IMG/VR virus record: IMGVR_UViG_3300038436_000063
Span: 1-26,169 of that record
Origin: a virus
Reading direction: 5' to 3' (one strand)
DNA length: 26,169 nt
The position numbers and the translations under genes were made by a program. Below, piece after piece: positions 7,892 to 25,141 of the stretch. Numbering within the stretch: the first letter of the stretch is position 1; every line of letters starts with the position of its first letter. The notes beneath the pieces are model-generated. The model did no database searches, was not told the DNA's origin, and was given only the letters and a program-made list of their open reading frames with translations.

Positions 7892-8380
7892 TCACTGTTT
7901 TGCCTCTACCTTTACGTTTCGATTTCCGAACAGGAATCCAGCCATTTCCTCCTCCTCGCTCGGTGTGTTAACCTGTACCCTCGTACGGCTGCTGGGCGTC
8001 ATCCCAAATTCCGCATAGAACTTGATAATTTGGTCCATACTGCGCTTCTTGATTGCCACCCAGGGATTCTGGTACAGTCCGCCCTTATCCGAGATAATGA
8101 CTTCACCTTCCTTGGTCAACTTGTTGCAGGCTTTTACATAATCCGCGTATGCGGTGCAGCACACAGCCAGTGCAGCCCGGTCCAGCTTGGAAATCATTCC
8201 TAACACTTTCAATTCCTTTGTGATACGGGCCCATTCCTGTCGCGCTACTCCCTTCAGGTGATTCGGGCAAGAAGGCAGATCAACCGCGGGCCTGGGCTCC
8301 TTTTTATTCAGAGCGCGCTTCCCTGGGTTGCCCTCCAGCTCCTTCATAGCTGTTGGCTTTGGCTTTCTACCCCTCGTCAT
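7892..8380 (-). CDS. Terminase small subunit B, P27 family
   Basis: This 162-residue protein has the P27-type pattern: TRGRKPKPTAMKELEGNPGKRALN at the N-terminus, a central helical region (HLKGVARQEWARITKELKVLG...LDRAALAVCCTAYADYVKA), and the C-terminal AEFGMTPSSRTRV signature. Small subunits recognise the packaging site and load DNA onto TerL, which is encoded directly downstream. The ATG overlaps the methyltransferase stop as TAATG and has GGAGGA 4 bases upstream. A paralogue (10927-11403) is encoded on the other side of the two methyltransferase genes, so the phage carries two P27-type small subunits. Confidence 0.92.
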   Translation of the reverse strand: MTRGRKPKPTAMKELEGNPGKRALNKKEPRPAVDLPSCPNHLKGVARQEWARITKELKVLGMISKLDRAALAVCCTAYADYVKACNKLTKEGEVIISDKGGLYQNPWVAIKKRSMDQIIKFYAEFGMTPSSRTRVQVNTPSEEEEMAGFLFGNRNVKVEAKQ

Positions 8381-9603
8381 TATTCCTCCAAAATTGGATT
8401 TTCCTTCGTCATCTGCGACCAGCGCTCGAGCACCACCGCCGCATATTTCGGATCGTTGTCCATCGTGCGGCAGATGCGTCCAAGCCGTTCGCAGGCGATC
8501 AACGTGGTGCCAGAACCGGCGAACAGGTCCATCACGATTGCGTCTGGCTGGCTGGAATTCGTCAGCGATCGTTCCACCAGGTCCAATGGTTTCGTGGTCG
8601 GGTGATCTTCACTCTTTTTCGGTCGGTCGATCAACCACACGTCCGACTGTTTGCGGTCCTCCAACTCCACCAGTCGCGGCGCGCGGTTATCCCAGCCGTA
8701 CCACATCGGTTCGTATTGCGTGTGATAATCCTTGCGGGAGAGCACCAGGCTGTCCTTGACCCAGATGATGGTGCTCGACCAGTGGAAGCCAATCTTGCGC
8801 AACGATGCATCGACGACCGGCCATTCCTGCCCCCCCATGACGAGATAGATCAGCGCGCCTGGCTGGCAAAAGCTCCGGAATTGTGTGACGAACAGGTCAA
8901 CGAAGATGTGAAATTTCTCCCCGAGGTCATCGTTGTTCATCGTGCGGTCACCATAAGCTGGATGATCACCACCGCCATAATTGACGTTCCAGGGTGGGTC
9001 GCTCCAGATCAACTGGGCGAGATCGTTCCCCATCAAGCGCTTCACCTCGGACCGTTGGGTGGAGTCCCCGCACATCAGCCGGTGCGCGCCCAGCCGCCAC
9101 ACCTGCCCAACCTGCACCTGCCACTTCGCAAGCAGTTCATCAGCCCGGCCCAGCTCCGCGCCAGGGTCCTGGGCTATGGGTTTCGTTGCCGTGGAAACGC
9201 CTACCAGGTCGTCCAACTCCGCAGGCTCGAACCCCGTGAAGAGATCGCCGGTGGTGCTGGCAATCTCGCGCAAGACCACTTCATCCCAGCGGCTGAATTC
9301 ACCCACGCGGTTATCGGCAATCCCAAACGCCGCCGCGGTCGCCGGGTCATCCTCCACGAAGACCACGGCCAGGTGAGACCAGCCCAGGGACTTCGCCGCT
9401 CGATAGGTCCCGTTGCCTGCCTCGATCTTCCCCTCCTGCAGACGGTTGGCCACGATGGGTTTACGCTGTCCGTAGGCTTTCAGCGACGCAGCAATCCGCG
9501 CCACATCGTGACCCACGCGGGCATTGGCAGGGTCTTCGTGCAGGCTGTCGATCGGCACAGCCAGCGGCCGTAGGGATTCAGCGATGTAGGGAAGATTGTT
9601 CAT
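8380..9603 (-). CDS. ParB-domain / DNA methyltransferase fusion B (DPPW type)
   Basis: Starting at the ATG at 9603, which overlaps the preceding stop (ATGA), the protein is 407 residues. Residues 15-130 form a ParB/Sulfiredoxin-like domain (IDSLHEDPANAR, GQRKPIVANR, IEAGNGTYRAA, ADNRVGEFSRWD). Residues 165-395 are an AdoMet-dependent methyltransferase with motif IV DPPW (202-205), HPTTKP (334-339) and the AdoMet motif FAGSGT (361-366). This motif order is that of beta-class N6-adenine or N4-cytosine enzymes; DPPW favours N6-adenine. It probably modifies phage DNA, perhaps against host restriction or at packaging sites. The frame extends to 9690, but without a better start. The ParB domain closely resembles that of the next gene. 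Confidence 0.9.
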   Translation of the reverse strand: MNNLPYIAESLRPLAVPIDSLHEDPANARVGHDVARIAASLKAYGQRKPIVANRLQEGKIEAGNGTYRAAKSLGWSHLAVVFVEDDPATAAAFGIADNRVGEFSRWDEVVLREIASTTGDLFTGFEPAELDDLVGVSTATKPIAQDPGAELGRADELLAKWQVQVGQVWRLGAHRLMCGDSTQRSEVKRLMGNDLAQLIWSDPPWNVNYGGGDHPAYGDRTMNNDDLGEKFHIFVDLFVTQFRSFCQPGALIYLVMGGQEWPVVDASLRKIGFHWSSTIIWVKDSLVLSRKDYHTQYEPMWYGWDNRAPRLVELEDRKQSDVWLIDRPKKSEDHPTTKPLDLVERSLTNSSQPDAIVMDLFAGSGTTLIACERLGRICRTMDNDPKYAAVVLERWSQMTKENPILEE

Positions 9604-10934
9604 AACACCTTTGGCGTTTCGCCAGTCATCAAATGCCAGCGTTCCAGCGAAGCGGCAACATAACCCGGGTCCAGTTCCACGGCCCGGCATACTCGGTTCA
9701 GGATTTCGCAGGCGATCAGCGTTGTTCCCGAACCGCAGAACGGCTCGAAGACGATCTCATCGGGCTGGGTGTAAAGTAGGATATGGCGGGCTGGGATCTC
9801 CAGCGGGAAGGCTGCCACGTGGCCGTGCGCGCTCGCTGTGCCTTTTACATCATTCCAGTAAGAGCGCAGCGCCCACTTCTGTTTTGTCCGTTCCTGGCCT
9901 CGGTTCTTGCCTACGCGGTTATAGAAGGTTTCCAGCAGGTTCACGTCCTGCTCGTTGAGCACGTCGGTGAAGTCCATCTCAGCGCCATCGTCGTGTTCGA
10001 ACGTGCCAATGAATTCTGAGTGCTGGTCGATCAGGTCCGTCTTTGGTGAGATGGATGCAATCTGCCCCTCTTTCAGCCAGTGGCGGATGTGGCGCAAGTT
10101 CCAGCCCAGTTGGTAGAACGCCAACATCCACTTGTCGATCAGCAGCAGCACCTGACGCTTCTTGCGTTTTTCGAAGCTGGTTGTAAAACCGGTCCCGGTG
10201 TTGATCACAATTCGGGACTCATCCACGCGCACTACAGCGGCGATGATTGCCGCGGCGCGACCGATGAACTGGTCGATCTCGGCTTCGCTCTTCTCGCGCT
10301 CGTACTCCTTGCCCACCCAGTAAGGCGGAGATGTGACTGAAAGGGTGGCGATTCCCTGCCAGCCCAATGCCTCGACGTTTAGGGTCGTTGCGTCCGCGCA
10401 GGTAATGACATGTCTACCCAGTTGCCAGGTCTGCCCGGGCTGGGTCCCCCACTTCTCGCGCAGCTCGCCTAGTTTATTGTCATCATCCTGTGGGCCCGGG
10501 TCCACCATTAGGCCGCCGCCGCGCTCGCCGAGCAGGTCGCGCAGTTCCGCTTCGGTAAAGCCGGTGAATAAATCATCGACGGTCGGGATCAACGCGCCGA
10601 GCGCGTCCAGGTCCCATGCGCTCAGCTCGCTGAGGCGATTGTCTGCGATGCCATAAGCTGCTGCGGTGGCTGGATCATCTTCCACGAAGACAACAGCGAT
10701 ATGAGTCCAGCCGAGTTTCTTCGCCGCAAGCCAGGTCCCGTTACCGGCTTCGATCTTTCCACCCTGCAGGCGGTTTGCAATGATGGGTTTACGCTGACCG
10801 TACAGCTTCAGCGAAGTTGCAATCCGATCAAGCGCATGATTGGTGCGTGTATTGGCCGGGTCAATGTGCAACTCATCGATCACGAATGCAAGACTACGAA
10901 GGCCCTCGGCAATGTAGGTTAAATCATCAGTCAT
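9600..10934 (-). CDS. ParB-domain / DNA methyltransferase fusion A (TSPPY type)
   Basis: This 444-residue protein has the same design as its neighbour: ParB-like domain (residues 16-135; IDELHIDPANTR, GQRKPIIANR, IEAGNGTWLAA, ADNRLSELSAWD) then a methyltransferase with motif IV TSPPY (201-205) and AdoMet motif FCGSGT (399-404), plus HVAAFPLEIP (372-381). TSPPY is typical of N4-cytosine enzymes, so this copy and copy B probably modify different bases. The ParB halves are nearly superimposable while the catalytic halves are divergent. It overlaps TerS-A by 8 bases and copy B by 4, so the block is one translational unit. The target sequence cannot be read from the gene. Confidence 0.9.
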   Translation of the reverse strand: MTDDLTYIAEGLRSLAFVIDELHIDPANTRTNHALDRIATSLKLYGQRKPIIANRLQGGKIEAGNGTWLAAKKLGWTHIAVVFVEDDPATAAAYGIADNRLSELSAWDLDALGALIPTVDDLFTGFTEAELRDLLGERGGGLMVDPGPQDDDNKLGELREKWGTQPGQTWQLGRHVITCADATTLNVEALGWQGIATLSVTSPPYWVGKEYEREKSEAEIDQFIGRAAAIIAAVVRVDESRIVINTGTGFTTSFEKRKKRQVLLLIDKWMLAFYQLGWNLRHIRHWLKEGQIASISPKTDLIDQHSEFIGTFEHDDGAEMDFTDVLNEQDVNLLETFYNRVGKNRGQERTKQKWALRSYWNDVKGTASAHGHVAAFPLEIPARHILLYTQPDEIVFEPFCGSGTTLIACEILNRVCRAVELDPGYVAASLERWHLMTGETPKVL

Positions 10935-11403
10935 TGATTCTCACTCTTTGTCCAAATAACATCTGCTCCAGTTCCTGATCTGGATTTATCAGGTCTGCTT
11001 TCACACGCGAGCGGCTGGAGGGTGTCATTCCGAATTCCGCGCCCAGCTTGTTGAGTTGTTCGAGCGCCCGGTTCGCAATCGAGAGATAGGGATTCTGGAT
11101 GATATTCCCTGCCGCGGTTTTGATGATCTCACCTTTTTCGCGGACCATCCGCTCTGCTTTGACCCATCGCGCGTAGATGACACAATACATGGCGAGCGCG
11201 TCCACGTCGATTGTTGTTACCAGCCCCAGTGGATGCAGTTCGCGCACAACCAGCTTCCACTTGGCTTTTTCCTCGTCACTTAAGTGCTCCGGAGGCCGCG
11301 GCCTGACCACTTTCGGCCGAGGTTCCGCGTGATTCAAGGCGCGTTTGCCTGGGTTCCCGGCCAGCACCTTGACCGCTGTTGGCTTGGGTTTGCGGCCTCG
11401 CAT
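10927..11403 (-). CDS. Terminase small subunit A, P27 family
   Basis: This 158-residue protein shares the P27 pattern with TerS-B: MRGRKPKPTAVKVLAGNPGKRALN at the start and AEFGMTPSSRSRV near the end. It differs in the middle and in the tail. It is likely a second DNA-recognition subunit for packaging, or a relic of a recombination event. The upstream sequence has only a G-rich site (GGCGG), and an 85-base gap separates it from the HNH gene. In HK97-type phages the cos region often lies near terS and HNH genes, so that gap is a candidate location, though I see no diagnostic motif. Confidence 0.88.
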   Translation of the reverse strand: MRGRKPKPTAVKVLAGNPGKRALNHAEPRPKVVRPRPPEHLSDEEKAKWKLVVRELHPLGLVTTIDVDALAMYCVIYARWVKAERMVREKGEIIKTAAGNIIQNPYLSIANRALEQLNKLGAEFGMTPSSRSRVKADLINPDQELEQMLFGQRVRIND

Positions 11404-13172: not shown

Positions 13173-13436
13173 TCATTGCTCCTGTACAATCCCGGTGATC
13201 TGATAGAGCCCGATTTCACGCTCTTTCTGGGTGCGCAAATTGCGCACGCGCACCCGCGTGGTGCTGGGAATACCACAGATGCCCACCACAACCCCGTAAT
13301 ATTCTCGCTCGTTGGCCTGGTATTGCAGCTTTGTGCCAGGCGTCAACATCGAGGATGCCACATTGTAGATATTCCCGTCGATGCGCTTGCGCTCGGACAG
13401 CAGCCGGCGCAGCACGGCCAGATTGAGATCTGTCAT
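13173..13436 (-). CDS. Small beta-rich protein of unknown function
   Basis: Starting at the ATG at 13436, which overlaps the initiator stop (ATGA), the product has 87 residues. A short N-terminal helix (LAVLRRLLSERKRID) is followed by a region with alternating beta pattern (GTKLQYQANEREYYGVVVGICG, then TRVRVRNLRTQKEREIGLYQITGIV), which suggests a small barrel or SH3-like domain. Coupling to the initiator gene suggests a replication accessory role, but that is only positional. Confidence 0.6.
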   Translation of the reverse strand: MTDLNLAVLRRLLSERKRIDGNIYNVASSMLTPGTKLQYQANEREYYGVVVGICGIPSTTRVRVRNLRTQKEREIGLYQITGIVQEQ

Positions 13437-14425
13437 GCTTCCTCCGTTTCCGTAGCAACGATAAACTCGACGCGCAGCTGGGCGTCCCCCAGCAGCCTGG
13501 CCAGCGCCGGCTGGACCCGCGTGACCAGGCGGTCGCGCAGCCAGTCGGCGCCGTACACATTGCGGCATCCGATGCGGAGCACGCCGCCATCGAAACAGAC
13601 CGGGTAGGTGCCCAGCACCCAGGTCTCATACTCGACCTTGCGCAGGTCCTGCCGCAACTGCTCCTGGACCGTTATCCAGGCATCGTAAACGGCGGCCTCC
13701 ACAGTGCAGACATACTCGGTCACGCGCACGATCTCCGGCTCGGAATCAGGCTCGACATCCACCACGTCCGGCTCGGCCAGCCCCAGCGCGACCAGGTACT
13801 CATTAGGCAAAAAAGCCAGTGGGTCGGCCTGGTATTTCTTGTCCGGGAGCGCCCGCTGGGCCTGCAGCCGCCGGTAGACTAGCGCCCACGGATGACTGAT
13901 CTTGCCTTGTTTGTGCTGGTCGTAGGCCTGGGCCAGCCATGCGATCACATAGTCCGCATCCAGGCTCTCGCTCAGGCCAAAGCTGATCACTTCGTGTCCT
14001 GGGAATAAAATTCCCGTTTCAGACAGGATTGTGCTGGATGTGCAATTTTTGAGCATCCCCTTCTTTCTTTCTTTCATGTCTTTTAAGTCTTTAGAGTCTT
14101 TTCTTAAAGACTCTTTAAGAGACGGATGCTCAACTTTTGAGCATCCAGGATTGTCCAATTGGAGCAGCATCTGCCGCCCGCCATCAGCCAGGATGTAACC
14201 GCTGTTGTGGTCCACTTTGATGACAGCCTCGAGCACGGCCAGCTTGCGCAGCGCCGTCGCTGCTGTATTGCGCGAAATCTGTACGTTCTCGGCGATCTCG
14301 CTTTGCGTGACGGGTCGATCCCCGCGCGTGCGCATGTAGAGCAGGATGATGACCAGCGGCGCCGCTTTGTAGAGCGCGTGCCAGCGCACCTGGTCAGATA
14401 GCGGGAGCACAGACAGGCCAGTCAT
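13433..14425 (-). CDS. Replication initiator: winged helix plus DnaA domain-I-like region
   Basis: The 330-residue protein has three parts. Residues 20-88 form a winged helix-turn-helix (RPVTQSEIAENVQISRNTAATALRKLAVLEAVIKV). Residues 92-135 are a Lys/Ser-rich linker. Residues 248-323 resemble the N-terminal domain of DnaA (YDAWITVQEQLRQ, YETWVLGTYPVCF, GGVLRIGCRNVYGADWLRDRL, ALARLLG, LRVEFIV), the part that contacts helicase and other initiation proteins. There is no AAA+ ATPase. I infer an origin-binding initiator that recruits host helicase, functionally like lambda O. The linker-coding DNA carries paired palindromes and an AT-rich patch (14036-14146), a candidate origin. The start overlaps the preceding gene (ATGA). 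Confidence 0.75.
   Translation of the reverse strand: MTGLSVLPLSDQVRWHALYKAAPLVIILLYMRTRGDRPVTQSEIAENVQISRNTAATALRKLAVLEAVIKVDHNSGYILADGGRQMLLQLDNPGCSKVEHPSLKESLRKDSKDLKDMKERKKGMLKNCTSSTILSETGILFPGHEVISFGLSESLDADYVIAWLAQAYDQHKQGKISHPWALVYRRLQAQRALPDKKYQADPLAFLPNEYLVALGLAEPDVVDVEPDSEPEIVRVTEYVCTVEAAVYDAWITVQEQLRQDLRKVEYETWVLGTYPVCFDGGVLRIGCRNVYGADWLRDRLVTRVQPALARLLGDAQLRVEFIVATETEEA
14036..14146. other. Candidate replication origin inside the initiator gene
   Basis: Two 23-bp palindromes, 14036-14058 and 14124-14146, match at 20 of 23 positions; each is two 10-base arms (GGATGCTCAA-type and TTGAGCATCC) around 3 bases. Between them lies a 65-base pyrimidine/AT-rich segment containing further inverted repeats (AGAGTCTTT / AAAGACTCT at 14093-14114 and the palindrome CTCTTTAAGAG at 14111-14121). 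A 9-base direct repeat (CAGGATTGT) also flanks the block (14024-14032, 14146-14154). The palindromes fall in different reading frames of the gene, so their identity is not explained by protein repeats. The arrangement mirrors initiator-gene origins such as lambda ori in gene O. Confidence 0.6.
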
Positions 14426-14625: not shown

Positions 14626-15327
14626 TTACTCCTTGTTGAGTTCCACCTGGGCATACTTGCGCCAATTGCGAGCCGTGCGCGCATCGATCCCGAAGTGGTA
14701 ACAAATATTTGCTGTCTCATCTACAGCCAGAGCCTGGACCTGATCGCCCGTCAATAGTTTCCGAGCTTTCCGCCAATCGTTCGGAAACTTACCGGAAAGT
14801 TTCCCATCCTCTTGCGGAAAGTTTCCGGTAACTTTCCCGTCGTCGCGGAAACTTACCGTCACGATCTGGTTGCCGACAGACACACCGCCGATCAGCAGGT
14901 ACGGCGCAATATTGACCAAAAACGACCAGCCAAACAACAGCCACAAGTTCGAGAGTACAGCGGCCATCGATGTGTGAGTTACCCTGGAGACCGTAAACGG
15001 CACCAGGATCAGCACACCGGTCCCGATCAGCGAGAAGACAAAGCCCGTGAGTGCCTTGAATTTGAACGACCACTTCTTCCCGGCCGCCGGCATCGTGCGC
15101 CGCCAGCCGTCGAAGAGATATGCGCCGCCAAAAACGTCCAGGATGCCCATTCCCAGGCCGCTGAGACCCATCAGAACGCTGATTACTTCCGACAACCAGC
15201 CTACGATCTCGCCCACGTCGCTGGCGATAAAAGCCGCCGCATAGCGCACCACCGTGACGATGGCTGCGCTCCAGATCAACATCGTCGAATAATCGTGCCC
15301 TTTACTCTTCGTTTTTCCTGCCATCAT
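14626..15327 (-). CDS. Four-helix membrane protein with C-terminal helix-turn-helix
   Basis: The 233-residue protein has four hydrophobic segments (about residues 15-36, 43-65, 92-113 and 121-150). A linker contains two similar units, KVTGNFPQEDG and KLSGKFPNDWR (165-186). The C-terminal region (191-225, LTGDQVQALAVDETANICYHFGIDARTARNWRKY) looks like a homeodomain-type helix-turn-helix. It may tether DNA to the membrane or act as a membrane-bound regulator. It lies in the ATPase/membrane gene run, directly upstream of the initiator pair, where membrane anchoring of the replicon would make sense. The N-terminus overlaps the previous gene by 26 bases; starts at residue 2 or 16 are alternatives. 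No family name assigned. Confidence 0.65.
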   Translation of the reverse strand: MMAGKTKSKGHDYSTMLIWSAAIVTVVRYAAAFIASDVGEIVGWLSEVISVLMGLSGLGMGILDVFGGAYLFDGWRRTMPAAGKKWSFKFKALTGFVFSLIGTGVLILVPFTVSRVTHTSMAAVLSNLWLLFGWSFLVNIAPYLLIGGVSVGNQIVTVSFRDDGKVTGNFPQEDGKLSGKFPNDWRKARKLLTGDQVQALAVDETANICYHFGIDARTARNWRKYAQVELNKE

Positions 15328-15646
15328 GCTCCTCCGTCATAACAAATAGATTCGCTTGCACTGCTCCAGTAGGCCGCACATCTGCGGGGTCGTCAAGCCG
15401 GGGGGCATCTGGTTCCAACCGGTCTTCCATAAACATACCGAGTTGTATTCCTTCGCCAGGCTCGCCGTCTATCACTTCGAGCGTAGCTACAAAATCCGGC
15501 TCCAGCCAGCCCGCCTTCACCACCGCCAACACCCGTTTTTCCAGTTCCTTGGCCCTGATCAAGGTCGACTGCGTGCGGTCCTTGAAATATTCCTGCTGCG
15601 CCGTCAACATCTCGCCCACCAGTTCCAAAAACGCCTGCGCTTTCAT
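15302..15646 (-). CDS. Small acidic helical protein, unknown function
   Basis: The 114-residue product starts with an ATG that overlaps the ATPase stop (ATGA) and has GAGGAG 8 bases upstream. Residues 1-50 are helical (FLELVGEMLTAQQEYFKDRTQSTL, then RAKELEKRVLAVVKAG), and the rest is acidic and probably flexible (GEPGEGIQLGMFMEDRLEPD). It may be a partner of the ATPase encoded just before it. No motif recognised. Confidence 0.65.
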   Translation of the reverse strand: MKAQAFLELVGEMLTAQQEYFKDRTQSTLIRAKELEKRVLAVVKAGWLEPDFVATLEVIDGEPGEGIQLGMFMEDRLEPDAPRLDDPADVRPTGAVQANLFVMTEEHDGRKNEE

Positions 15647-17070
15647 ACGCCAGACTCCTCGTCTTTCTCGGGCAGATTCGCAGAAACCGAAAACCCCGAA
15701 AACCGCCTAAAACCATCTGAAACCGGCCCAAAACTGCCTGAAACCGGCCCAAAACCGTCTGAAACCCCCAAAAACCGCATTACGCGCTCGCCCAGCACAA
15801 ACGCATTGTCCTGCTCGGCGTCTTTGACGATCCAGCCCCGCAGCGCCCAGCCCTTCTGCAGCTTGTTCGCCTGGTGCACGCTTTCGCCCGCCACTTCCTG
15901 GATCAGCGCCAGCGTCACCCGCCCGCCGTTCTCCAGCGCGCGGGTGAAGACGGCCCGCTCGATCTGCGACAACGCTTCGCGCGCCGCCCCGCCCTGCTGG
16001 CCGATCAACAGGCTTTTATCGAGGTAATAGGCCTGCACCGGCCCCCACTTGTTCGTGACCGCCAGCCCCTGGCGCGCCTGTGGGATGCGCTCGGCGCCTG
16101 CGCAGTGCATGCGCGTGGACATCTCTTTCGCCTCGGTCCGGAAGCACACCACCGTTTCGCATTGCGGGCGCAGCAGGCCGATCTGTTCCTTCGTGAACTC
16201 GTGCGCCGCGAACACGATGTTCACCCCGAATTTCAGCGCGCGCATCCCCAGCGCCCCCAGCAGTTCGCTCATGTTGCTGCGGTTCCCGCTCTGCATCAGC
16301 GTGTTGTTGAACTCGTCCAGCACCACCAGCACGCGCGGCAGCACCGGCGCGCCGGCTTTCACCGCCAGGCGGTTGTACTCTTCCAGGTCTTCGGGATACC
16401 CGGACATGCCCTCGAACAGCCCCGCGCGGTGGTCGCACTCCCCCATCACCCGCTGCAGGGCGGCCAGCGCCGCGCCCGGGTCGAAGGCCATCGGTGTCAA
16501 CAGCGCCGGATGCTCGGCCAGCATCGGGAAGGTCACCCGGTCGTTGTCCGCGATGACGAGTTGCATCTCATCGCGGATGGCCTGGTACACCAGCGCGCGC
16601 AGGAACGTGCTCTTCCCGGAGCGCGTCTTTCCGGCCGCCAGCACGTGCCCCAGCCGCCGCCAGTCCGTGACCACCTGCTGGCCATCGTAGGACTGGCCCA
16701 GGCCCACCTGGCCGTGCTCCAGCTGCGGCAGGTCGATCTGCTTGGGCAGCCTGGGCATGCGGTTCAGCTGGAACACATAGCGCAGCCCGGTCGAGTTCGA
16801 GATATACACCGGCATGCCTTTCAGATTGGTGCTCAACTGGTGCACCAGCTTGCCCTTGTAGCGTTCCTGGTCGCCGATCTGGTTGGTATCCAGCACGCCC
16901 ACTAGCAGCACAATGCCCTGCCAGGTCGTCAGGAACCAGCCGTCGAAAGCCGCGGCCAGCTTGCGGTCCAGCAGGAAGCGCGGCACGTAGTCGGCCACTT
17001 TCTGCGCCTGCAGCATGTACCTCCGCCCGATCAGCGGGGGATTTTGGGAAACCGTCGTCAATGCGTTCAT
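15643..17070 (-). CDS. FtsK/HerA-type DNA-translocase ATPase
   Basis: This 475-residue protein has a Walker A (GKTRSGKS, residues 147-154), a Walker B (VLVVLDEF, 247-254) and a downstream AAHE motif (288-291), the layout of FtsK/SpoIIIE/TraB-like motors. Residues 1-135 form an N-terminal domain without obvious membrane helices apart from a hydrophobic stretch near 52-60. A region near 375-430 (RVTLALIQEVAGESVHQANKLQKGWALRGWIVKD) could be a winged helix. The C-terminal tail has a 7-residue repeat of FGPVS type. It may move plasmid or phage DNA at the membrane, for segregation or conjugative transfer; it is not the packaging motor, which is TerL. It overlaps the lipoprotein gene by 4 bases. Confidence 0.8.
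   Translation of the reverse strand: MNALTTVSQNPPLIGRRYMLQAQKVADYVPRFLLDRKLAAAFDGWFLTTWQGIVLLVGVLDTNQIGDQERYKGKLVHQLSTNLKGMPVYISNSTGLRYVFQLNRMPRLPKQIDLPQLEHGQVGLGQSYDGQQVVTDWRRLGHVLAAGKTRSGKSTFLRALVYQAIRDEMQLVIADNDRVTFPMLAEHPALLTPMAFDPGAALAALQRVMGECDHRAGLFEGMSGYPEDLEEYNRLAVKAGAPVLPRVLVVLDEFNNTLMQSGNRSNMSELLGALGMRALKFGVNIVFAAHEFTKEQIGLLRPQCETVVCFRTEAKEMSTRMHCAGAERIPQARQGLAVTNKWGPVQAYYLDKSLLIGQQGGAAREALSQIERAVFTRALENGGRVTLALIQEVAGESVHQANKLQKGWALRGWIVKDAEQDNAFVLGERVMRFLGVSDGFGPVSGSFGPVSDGFRRFSGFSVSANLPEKDEESGV
15717..15779. repeat. Three 21-bp tandem repeats in the ATPase tail
   Basis: Units at 15717-15737, 15738-15758 and 15759-15779, each beginning CTGAAACC; the first two are almost identical (CTGAAACCGGCCCAAAAC core). 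They encode 7-residue units of the form (G/S)FGPVS(G/D), a flexible low-complexity tail. Confidence 0.75.
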
Positions 17071-24659: not shown

Positions 24660-24683
24660 TCCGTTCTCCTAAACTTCGTTCAA

Positions 24684-24705
24684 TTTGTCCGAGACTTCGG
24701 ACAAC
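24684..24705. promoter_or_regulatory. Operator 1 of the divergent regulator region
   Basis: A near-palindrome with perfect core arms TTGTCCGA (24685-24692) and TCGGACAA (24697-24704) around GACT. It lies just downstream of the minus-strand -10 box, where a bound repressor would block transcription of the RHH gene. Confidence 0.7.
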
Positions 24706-24708
24706 GTC

Positions 24709-24736
24709 ATTATATTGATATTCACTAGTTTGTCAA
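24709..24736 (-). promoter_or_regulatory. Consensus promoter of the RHH gene and early operon
   Basis: Minus strand TTGACA (24731-24736) and TATAAT (24709-24714) with 16-base spacing, both perfect. The -35 box lies inside operator 2 and operator 1 follows the -10 box. Confidence 0.85.
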
Positions 24737-24750
24737 GGGTTTCGGACAAA
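24729..24750. promoter_or_regulatory. Operator 2 of the divergent regulator region
   Basis: TTTGTC...GACAAA (24729-24734, 24745-24750) has the same 22-base length as operator 1 and one half-site (TTCGGACAA) is identical. It covers the minus-strand -35 box and lies upstream of the XRE gene, so it could control both directions. The operators start 45 bases apart, about four helical turns. Confidence 0.65.
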
Positions 24751-24784: not shown

Positions 24785-25141
24785 ATGTCAAAGGCTATGG
24801 ACACCTTCGCAGACTGGCTTTTGCAACAAATGCAAGAAAGGGACTGGTCTCAAGCAGACTTAGCCCGTCAGTCTGGATTGACCAGGTCAACTATCAGTTA
24901 CTACCTTAGTGAAAAATCAAAAAGCCCCGATGAAGCCGCCCTCCGTAAAATTGCTCGCGCCTTTAAGTTTCCACCCGAAACCATCTTTCGCGCCGCTGGC
25001 CTTCTTCCATCCAAGCCCGAAATTGACGAACAAATCGAAGAGATCCTGCACGAGGCGGCGCAGCTTAGCGGCGCTGAGCGTGAAGAGCTGCTGGCCTACA
25101 TCCGCATGAAGCGCAACCTGCGCGAGAAACAGAAGTCCTGA
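24785..25141 (+). CDS. XRE-family (Cro/CI-type) repressor
   Basis: The 118-residue protein has an N-terminal HTH_3 domain (about residues 8-70): WSQADLARQSGLTRSTISYYLSEKSKSPDEAALRKIARAF. The C-terminal part (EIDEQIEEILHEAAQLSGAEREELLAYIRMKR) is helical and probably dimerises; no LexA/CI-type protease domain is present. Two starts are possible, 24785 and 24797 (Met 5); neither has a strong ribosome site (AAAGG lies 2 bases before the second), so the mRNA may be leaderless. It is divergent from the RHH gene and likely represses it in the lysogen. Confidence 0.85.
   Translation: MSKAMDTFADWLLQQMQERDWSQADLARQSGLTRSTISYYLSEKSKSPDEAALRKIARAFKFPPETIFRAAGLLPSKPEIDEQIEEILHEAAQLSGAEREELLAYIRMKRNLREKQKS

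Follow-up and report, generated by a model that had tools for sequence, protein, structure and literature searches.

The initiator gene and its protein

The window, by which we mean the whole stretch of DNA analysed here, is the 26,169-bp record IMGVR_UViG_3300038436_000063, a linear viral contig that encodes an HK97-type capsid and portal and has most of its genes pointing in one direction. Its reverse strand carries an initiator gene whose internal features, listed below in the order of translation, include two palindromic sites and the AT-rich core between them.

13433..14425, minus strand: initiator gene, 330 aa (winged helix, disordered linker, helical middle domain, DnaA domain I)
14156..14401, minus strand: winged-helix (wH) coding DNA, residues ~9-90 (AlphaFold2 model; wH fold matches)
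14124..14146, no strand: palindromic site 1, GGATGCTCAACTTTTGAGCATCC, with perfect 10-bp arms, GGATGCTCAA-CTT-TTGAGCATCC
14059..14123, no strand: AT-rich inter-site core, putative unwinding element, 65 bp, least stable 65-mer of the window
14093..14114, no strand: inverted repeat within the core, AGAGTCTTT-4-AAAGACTCT
14036..14058, no strand: palindromic site 2, GGATGTGCAATTTTTGAGCATCC, with 8/10 arm pairs (2 arm mismatches)
13784..14056, minus strand: helical middle-domain coding DNA, residues ~124-214 (conserved in homologues; no Pfam match)
13457..13696, minus strand: DnaA domain I-like coding DNA, residues ~244-323 (PF11638; 4tps_B fold match)

In the AlphaFold2 model of the 330-aa protein (mean pLDDT 78.5), residues 9-90 form the wH, whose fold matches wH DNA-binding proteins with Z ~10-11 in a structure comparison of the model. 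Residues 83-118 are disordered; site 1 and the greater part of the AT-rich core encode them. Residues ~124-214 make up a confidently modelled helical domain. The protein matched the Pfam family DnaA_N (PF11638) at 26.4 bits against a curated cut-off of 24.6, and its C-terminus aligned with DnaA domain I (4tps_B) at a Z of 13.8 and an rmsd of 1.7 with 82 aligned residues. A profile of 15 homologues compared with the PDB also found DnaA domain I (4tps, E 1e-15). The initial annotation had described a wH joined directly to a DnaA-I-like domain without AAA+. Both domains and the lack of AAA+ stand, the DnaA-I-like assignment now by profile and fold, whereas the direct junction does not, because the confident helical domain (~124-214) lies between them.

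Neither the AAA+ domain III nor domain IV of DnaA gave a Pfam match in the initiator, which scored 19 bits with the DnaA model TIGR00362 (cut-off 344). Phage_rep_O (PF04492) and RepA_N (PF06970) were not matched at E<=1, and DnaB_2 (PF07261) was matched neither by the initiator nor by its middle domain alone; there was a weak match to PHROG 678 (O-like; E 0.08). A DnaD-like identity of the middle domain was tried and dropped, at 2% probability in profile comparison and no Pfam match. In DnaA domain I of B. subtilis, T26, W27 and F49 are required for DnaD binding (PMC10201431), and in that of E. coli, E21 and F46 bind DnaB (PMC5448010). The window initiator has T-W and a tyrosine at positions that, mapped by eye on the alignment, match this DnaD/DnaB-binding surface.

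Two palindromes around the least stable stretch of the window

The two 23-bp sites are identical at 20 of 23 positions and lie 88 bp apart, in position and identity as first annotated. Allowing up to three mismatches, the motif occurred nowhere else in the window and was absent from 100 dinucleotide shuffles. The repeat score of 14 (shuffle maximum 12) was reached by none of 100 synonymous-codon shuffles of the initiator gene, in which protein and codon use were kept, and the palindrome score of 10 (shuffle maximum 8) by none of 30. The copies are read in different frames, GCSKVEHP in frame 0 and GMLKNCTS in frame 1, in agreement with the earlier reading. That reading also placed them between the wH and the DnaA-I-like region; they do lie in linker DNA downstream of the wH, but the next domain is the helical middle domain. 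A search for the exact palindrome in viral contigs gave no match. Three genomic matches to it were rejected, as they resemble Rho-independent terminators in unrelated bacteria.

The core has 31% GC against 59% for the gene, and by nearest-neighbour energies 14059-14123 has the lowest stability among all 65-mers of the record. Its inverted repeat, AGAGTCTTT...AAAGACTCT, was equalled in 3 of 200 shuffles. The AT-rich 65-base stretch with inverted repeats annotated between the palindromes is thus confirmed, and the duplex-stability calculation proposed for 14060-14123 singled out this very stretch.

The layout recurs in divergent homologues

Used as a direct query, the window initiator gave no match in viral contigs or phage records, and no related loci were recovered with FtsK as bait. 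With the terminase as bait, 80 related phage loci were obtained (L numbers below), and initiator homologues were found there and by two further alignment searches. The homologues are divergent in sequence, and in every one the same linker contains a repeated palindromic site of its own, usually unlike that of the window: GCACAAAATGTGC in L036, L037, L092 and L108, GTGCGGAAAATCGCAC in L089 and L090, GGGGGGAAATCCCCCC in L024, GGGAGAAATTCTCCC in L011 and GAGGGTAAAAGTTACCCTC in L042. L108 was examined after the layout rule had been formed, and fits it. Site copies are read in more than one frame in seven genes (e.g., RGEIPP/GGNPP in L024 and SAENRT/VRKIAP in L089), and GCACAAAATGTGC at the homologous third site is translated as TKCA in L036 but as AQNV in L092. 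The layout is conserved at the level of the DNA. Homologues that keep the linker peptide and lose the palindromes had been named beforehand as the outcome that would speak against an origin. The search of related phages returned the opposite: paired palindromic sites persist at the same place while peptide, frame and often the site sequence vary.

When 19 genes were compared with synonymous shuffles, most beat nearly all of them on direct-repeat score, palindrome score or both; since the genes share descent and the sites were partly picked by eye, this and the other homologue counts describe a pattern, not independent trials or probabilities. L022 beat the shuffles on palindrome score only, neither score clearly passed them in L012 and L033, and the top-scoring direct repeat of L031 is located outside its linker.

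In 13 of 14 genes, it is the widest gap between sites (63-92 bp, ~7% of gene length) that contains the least stable 45-mer. L093 has its least stable stretch next to the sites rather than between them, and L012, L033, L029, L094 and L095 have linker repeats with no clear flanked core. An inverted repeat was present in all 15 gaps examined, and in no gap was it equalled by more than 3 of 200 shuffles. Its arms are short repeats in most gaps (GATGATGAT...ATCATCATC, GGAGGAGGA...TCCTCCTCC, GTAGTAGT...ACTACTAC or GTTGTTGTT...AACAACAAC), with units such as (GAT)n, (GGA)n, (GTA)n and (GTT)n, and the L024 gap contains a strong dyad with 22-bp arms. We considered the DnaA-trio as a general rule for the trinucleotide arms and rejected it: with orientation compared by eye, TAG repeats fitting 3'-GAT-5' occur only in L011 and L093, the other arms being GAT, GGA and GTT.

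At L042 5249-5269, two consensus DnaA boxes (TTATCCACA) lie in the linker. The L042 protein is the only clear homologue without DnaA_N, and there the host DnaA may supply domain I. Judged by domain I, the closest named protein belongs to a plasmid of Leptolinea, a member of the Chloroflexota (50% to L027 across 70 residues), and this similarity in sequence tentatively suggests a Chloroflexota host.

The winged helix and its sites move as a cassette

Homologues whose N-terminal halves are more than 60% identical have a common site (L036/L037/L092; L089/L090). The N-termini of L012 and L033 are 82% identical and their sites are similar (GGGTGGCGC- and GGGTGACAC-type), while their C-termini are swapped, L012 ending in DnaA_N and L033 in a DnaB_2/DnaD-type domain that matches PF07261. 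In L024 and L092, the C-termini are 49% and the N-termini 28% identical, and the sites differ. Site identity tracks the N-terminus and not the C-terminus; therefore, wH and sites move together. From the DnaA_N and DnaB_2 endings it follows that DnaA domain I takes the place of a helicase-loader domain. In L029, from a related phage, Phage_rep_O (PF04492) was matched at 42.6 bits and DnaB_2 below threshold, and the linker contains repeats.

The domain order is reversed in L097-L100, where DnaA_N comes first. A Pfam search for the DNA-binding domain of these DnaA_N-first proteins gave no match; we infer that they have one. Short repeats start at or near the stop codon in L098, L099 and L100, those of L100 being palindromic, and the least stable stretch lies just beyond the repeats. 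Directly downstream of the L100 gene (5935-6882), at 959-1155 in gene coordinates, lie three TGATGTCAAAATTGACATCA palindromes along with a terminator-like hairpin and a purine-rich AT stretch. L096 has the forward order, with about nine GGAAAGAATTTTCC-type linker copies and then an AT-rich core with GTTGTTGTT/AACAACAAC arms. On the Thermobacillus composti plasmid pTHECO01, an HTH_36-DnaA_N gene is followed within 300 bp by about seven palindromic repeats of the TTTCAAACTTTGAAA type. A match by structure, Brevibacillus phage SecTim467, was discarded, having no DnaA_N in the stretches searched.

Alternative explanations for the sites

We asked whether the palindromes could be operators through which the wH represses its own gene from within the coding region, the AT-rich part being incidental. 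MarR/IclR-like wH folds bind palindromic operators, and in the locus DNA examined, the only site copy outside an initiator gene lies 53 bp upstream of the L089 start codon. However, loci other than L089 have no promoter-located site, the sites flank the least stable stretch with its internal dyad, and the C-terminal domains are replication domains (DnaA_N, DnaB_2), so that we consider this explanation improbable. Because of the L089 copy, autoregulation is also possible, and in L089 it may go alongside origin function.

Upstream of the initiator gene, positions 14782-14858 carry CGGAAACTTTCCG-like near-palindromes in the linker of gene 14626-15327(-), just before the C-terminal HTH-like tail of the encoded membrane protein; they are partly common to L023. 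This is possibly a second case of binding sites within the gene of their presumed binder. An origin with iterons elsewhere in the element was the other finding that had been named as contrary to the lambda-like reading, and this cluster, with five copies spaced 11-22 bp apart at 0.6 kb from the palindrome pair, is such a candidate. It has, however, no AT-rich core among the least stable segments of the window, and of 14 related loci checked it recurs only in L023, unlike the linker site pairs, which almost all homologues have. That the true origin lies in this cluster is thus quite unlikely.

Even less probable is a centromere-like partition site, with the protein acting in segregation as an adaptor like AspA or TubR. 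The wH does resemble pNOB8 AspA (Z 10.8), and ParB-like and FtsK-like proteins are also encoded by the phage, but the C-terminus is DnaA domain I, for which homologues have a helicase-loader domain instead, and a centromere has no need for an AT-rich core between its sites. An RNA-level hairpin in the linker (attenuator or translational pause) would suit the strong gap dyads, such as the 22-bp arms of L024, but is the least credible of all, given that the outer sites are spaced repeats tracking the wH, that the window palindromes show no terminator-like site and no Rfam match, and that the repeats lie outside the coding region in three loci. These rivals explain less than an intragenic origin does.

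Other features of the window are recorded here in their own right. AAACCG-unit repeats ~10-11 bp apart occupy 15698-15760, at the 3' end of the FtsK-like gene 15643-17070(-), and the FtsK homologues of L011, L027 and L023 likewise end in tandem CAAACC/CCAACC-type repeats; these are perhaps loading sites of the translocase. At 24663-24749, three 21-bp TTTGTCCGAGACTTCGGACAA-type palindromes adjoin an XRE-like repressor gene (24785-25141, plus strand) that is divergent from the early genes, likely the operator region of a temperate phage. The adjacent genes 8380-9690 and 9600-10934 (minus strand) each encode a ParB-like N-terminal part and a DNA methyltransferase, and each has its own small terminase-like neighbour (7892-8380; 10927-11403), which looks like a duplicated gene pair.

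Proposed origin and mechanism

We put at roughly 85% the probability that 14036-14146 is a phage replication origin inside the initiator gene, of the lambda O / RepA_N kind, with DnaA domain I recruiting the helicase. The initial annotation had offered a lambda-like intragenic origin as a candidate, and the layout of the homologues now supports it. We prefer an intragenic origin because the sites are kept at the DNA level in a disordered linker, are linked to the wH and enclose an unstable dyad core, and because the helicase-recruiting C-terminus is exchangeable. The phage origin might also lie beyond the window, which is a linear fragment.

From these features we infer binding, opening, helicase recruitment and origin activity, which could proceed as follows. 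The origin would be carried by the DNA encoding the disordered linker, and wH dimers of the initiator would bind both 23-bp palindromes. The bound dimers would strain the intervening AT-rich core or open it, and the C-terminal DnaA domain I would deliver the replicative helicase of the host to the opened strands, either directly or via a host loader.

More tentatively, and with the odds rather against it, these phages and plasmids might form a replicon class in which DnaA domain I, freed from DnaA, is a plug-in helicase recruiter on swappable wH and origin cassettes, and in which the dyad core with repeat arms is a new symmetric opening element that would admit two helicases for bidirectional replication without an AAA+ filament. 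The family offers matched initiator/origin pairs of differing specificity, in which site recognition, opening and helicase recruitment are separable by part swaps. It also suggests that DnaA domain I could recruit helicase where an unrelated DNA-binding domain opens the origin, which bears on the strict need for the other DnaA domains. Paired palindromes around an unstable dyad in an initiator linker give, in addition, a route to finding origins in uncultured phages.

Comparison with known systems

In lambda, the O-binding repeats and a 40-bp AT-rich region lie within gene O (PMC5043065). The window shares with it an origin in the initiator gene, dyad sites for initiator dimers (whose binding is here proposed) and an adjoining AT-rich element (PMC5043065); the lambda-type architecture is found here as dyad repeats between wH and middle domain, next to an easily melted AT-rich element. 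In lambda, however, four 19-bp iterons stand to one side of the 40-bp AT-rich region and the loader, P, is a separate protein, whereas the window has two palindromes flanking the core and DnaA domain I within the same protein.

In the RepA_N plasmid pSK41, the Rep boxes are central in rep, the linker is dispensable and the ends are exchangeable (PMC5703833). As in pSK41 and the chimeric pPR9, where the wH N-terminus binds boxes in the middle of rep and the origin encodes the linker, N-terminus and origin can be exchanged against a constant C-terminus (PMC5703833). The pSK41 Rep C-terminus, in contrast, is DnaD-like and binds DnaG, whereas that of the window is DnaA domain I, and four Rep boxes stand against a palindrome pair around a dyad core.

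With DnaA at oriC, the likeness lies in domain I, a helicase-recruiting hub (PMC5448010, PMC10201431), but the window protein is without domains III and IV, and DNA binding is assigned to an unrelated wH; a search for DnaA boxes in the window found none. The pTHECO01 protein also combines HTH_36 and DnaA_N with palindromic repeats nearby, downstream of the gene there and in the linker here.

The principle of an intragenic origin is already known, since lambda O (PMC5043065) and pSK41 RepA_N (PMC5703833) precede our case. Within the open-access literature, we found no published description of such initiators. What is new here is that DnaA domain I forms the C-terminal module, that a pair of palindromes encloses a dyad core, and that the cassettes of the family differ.
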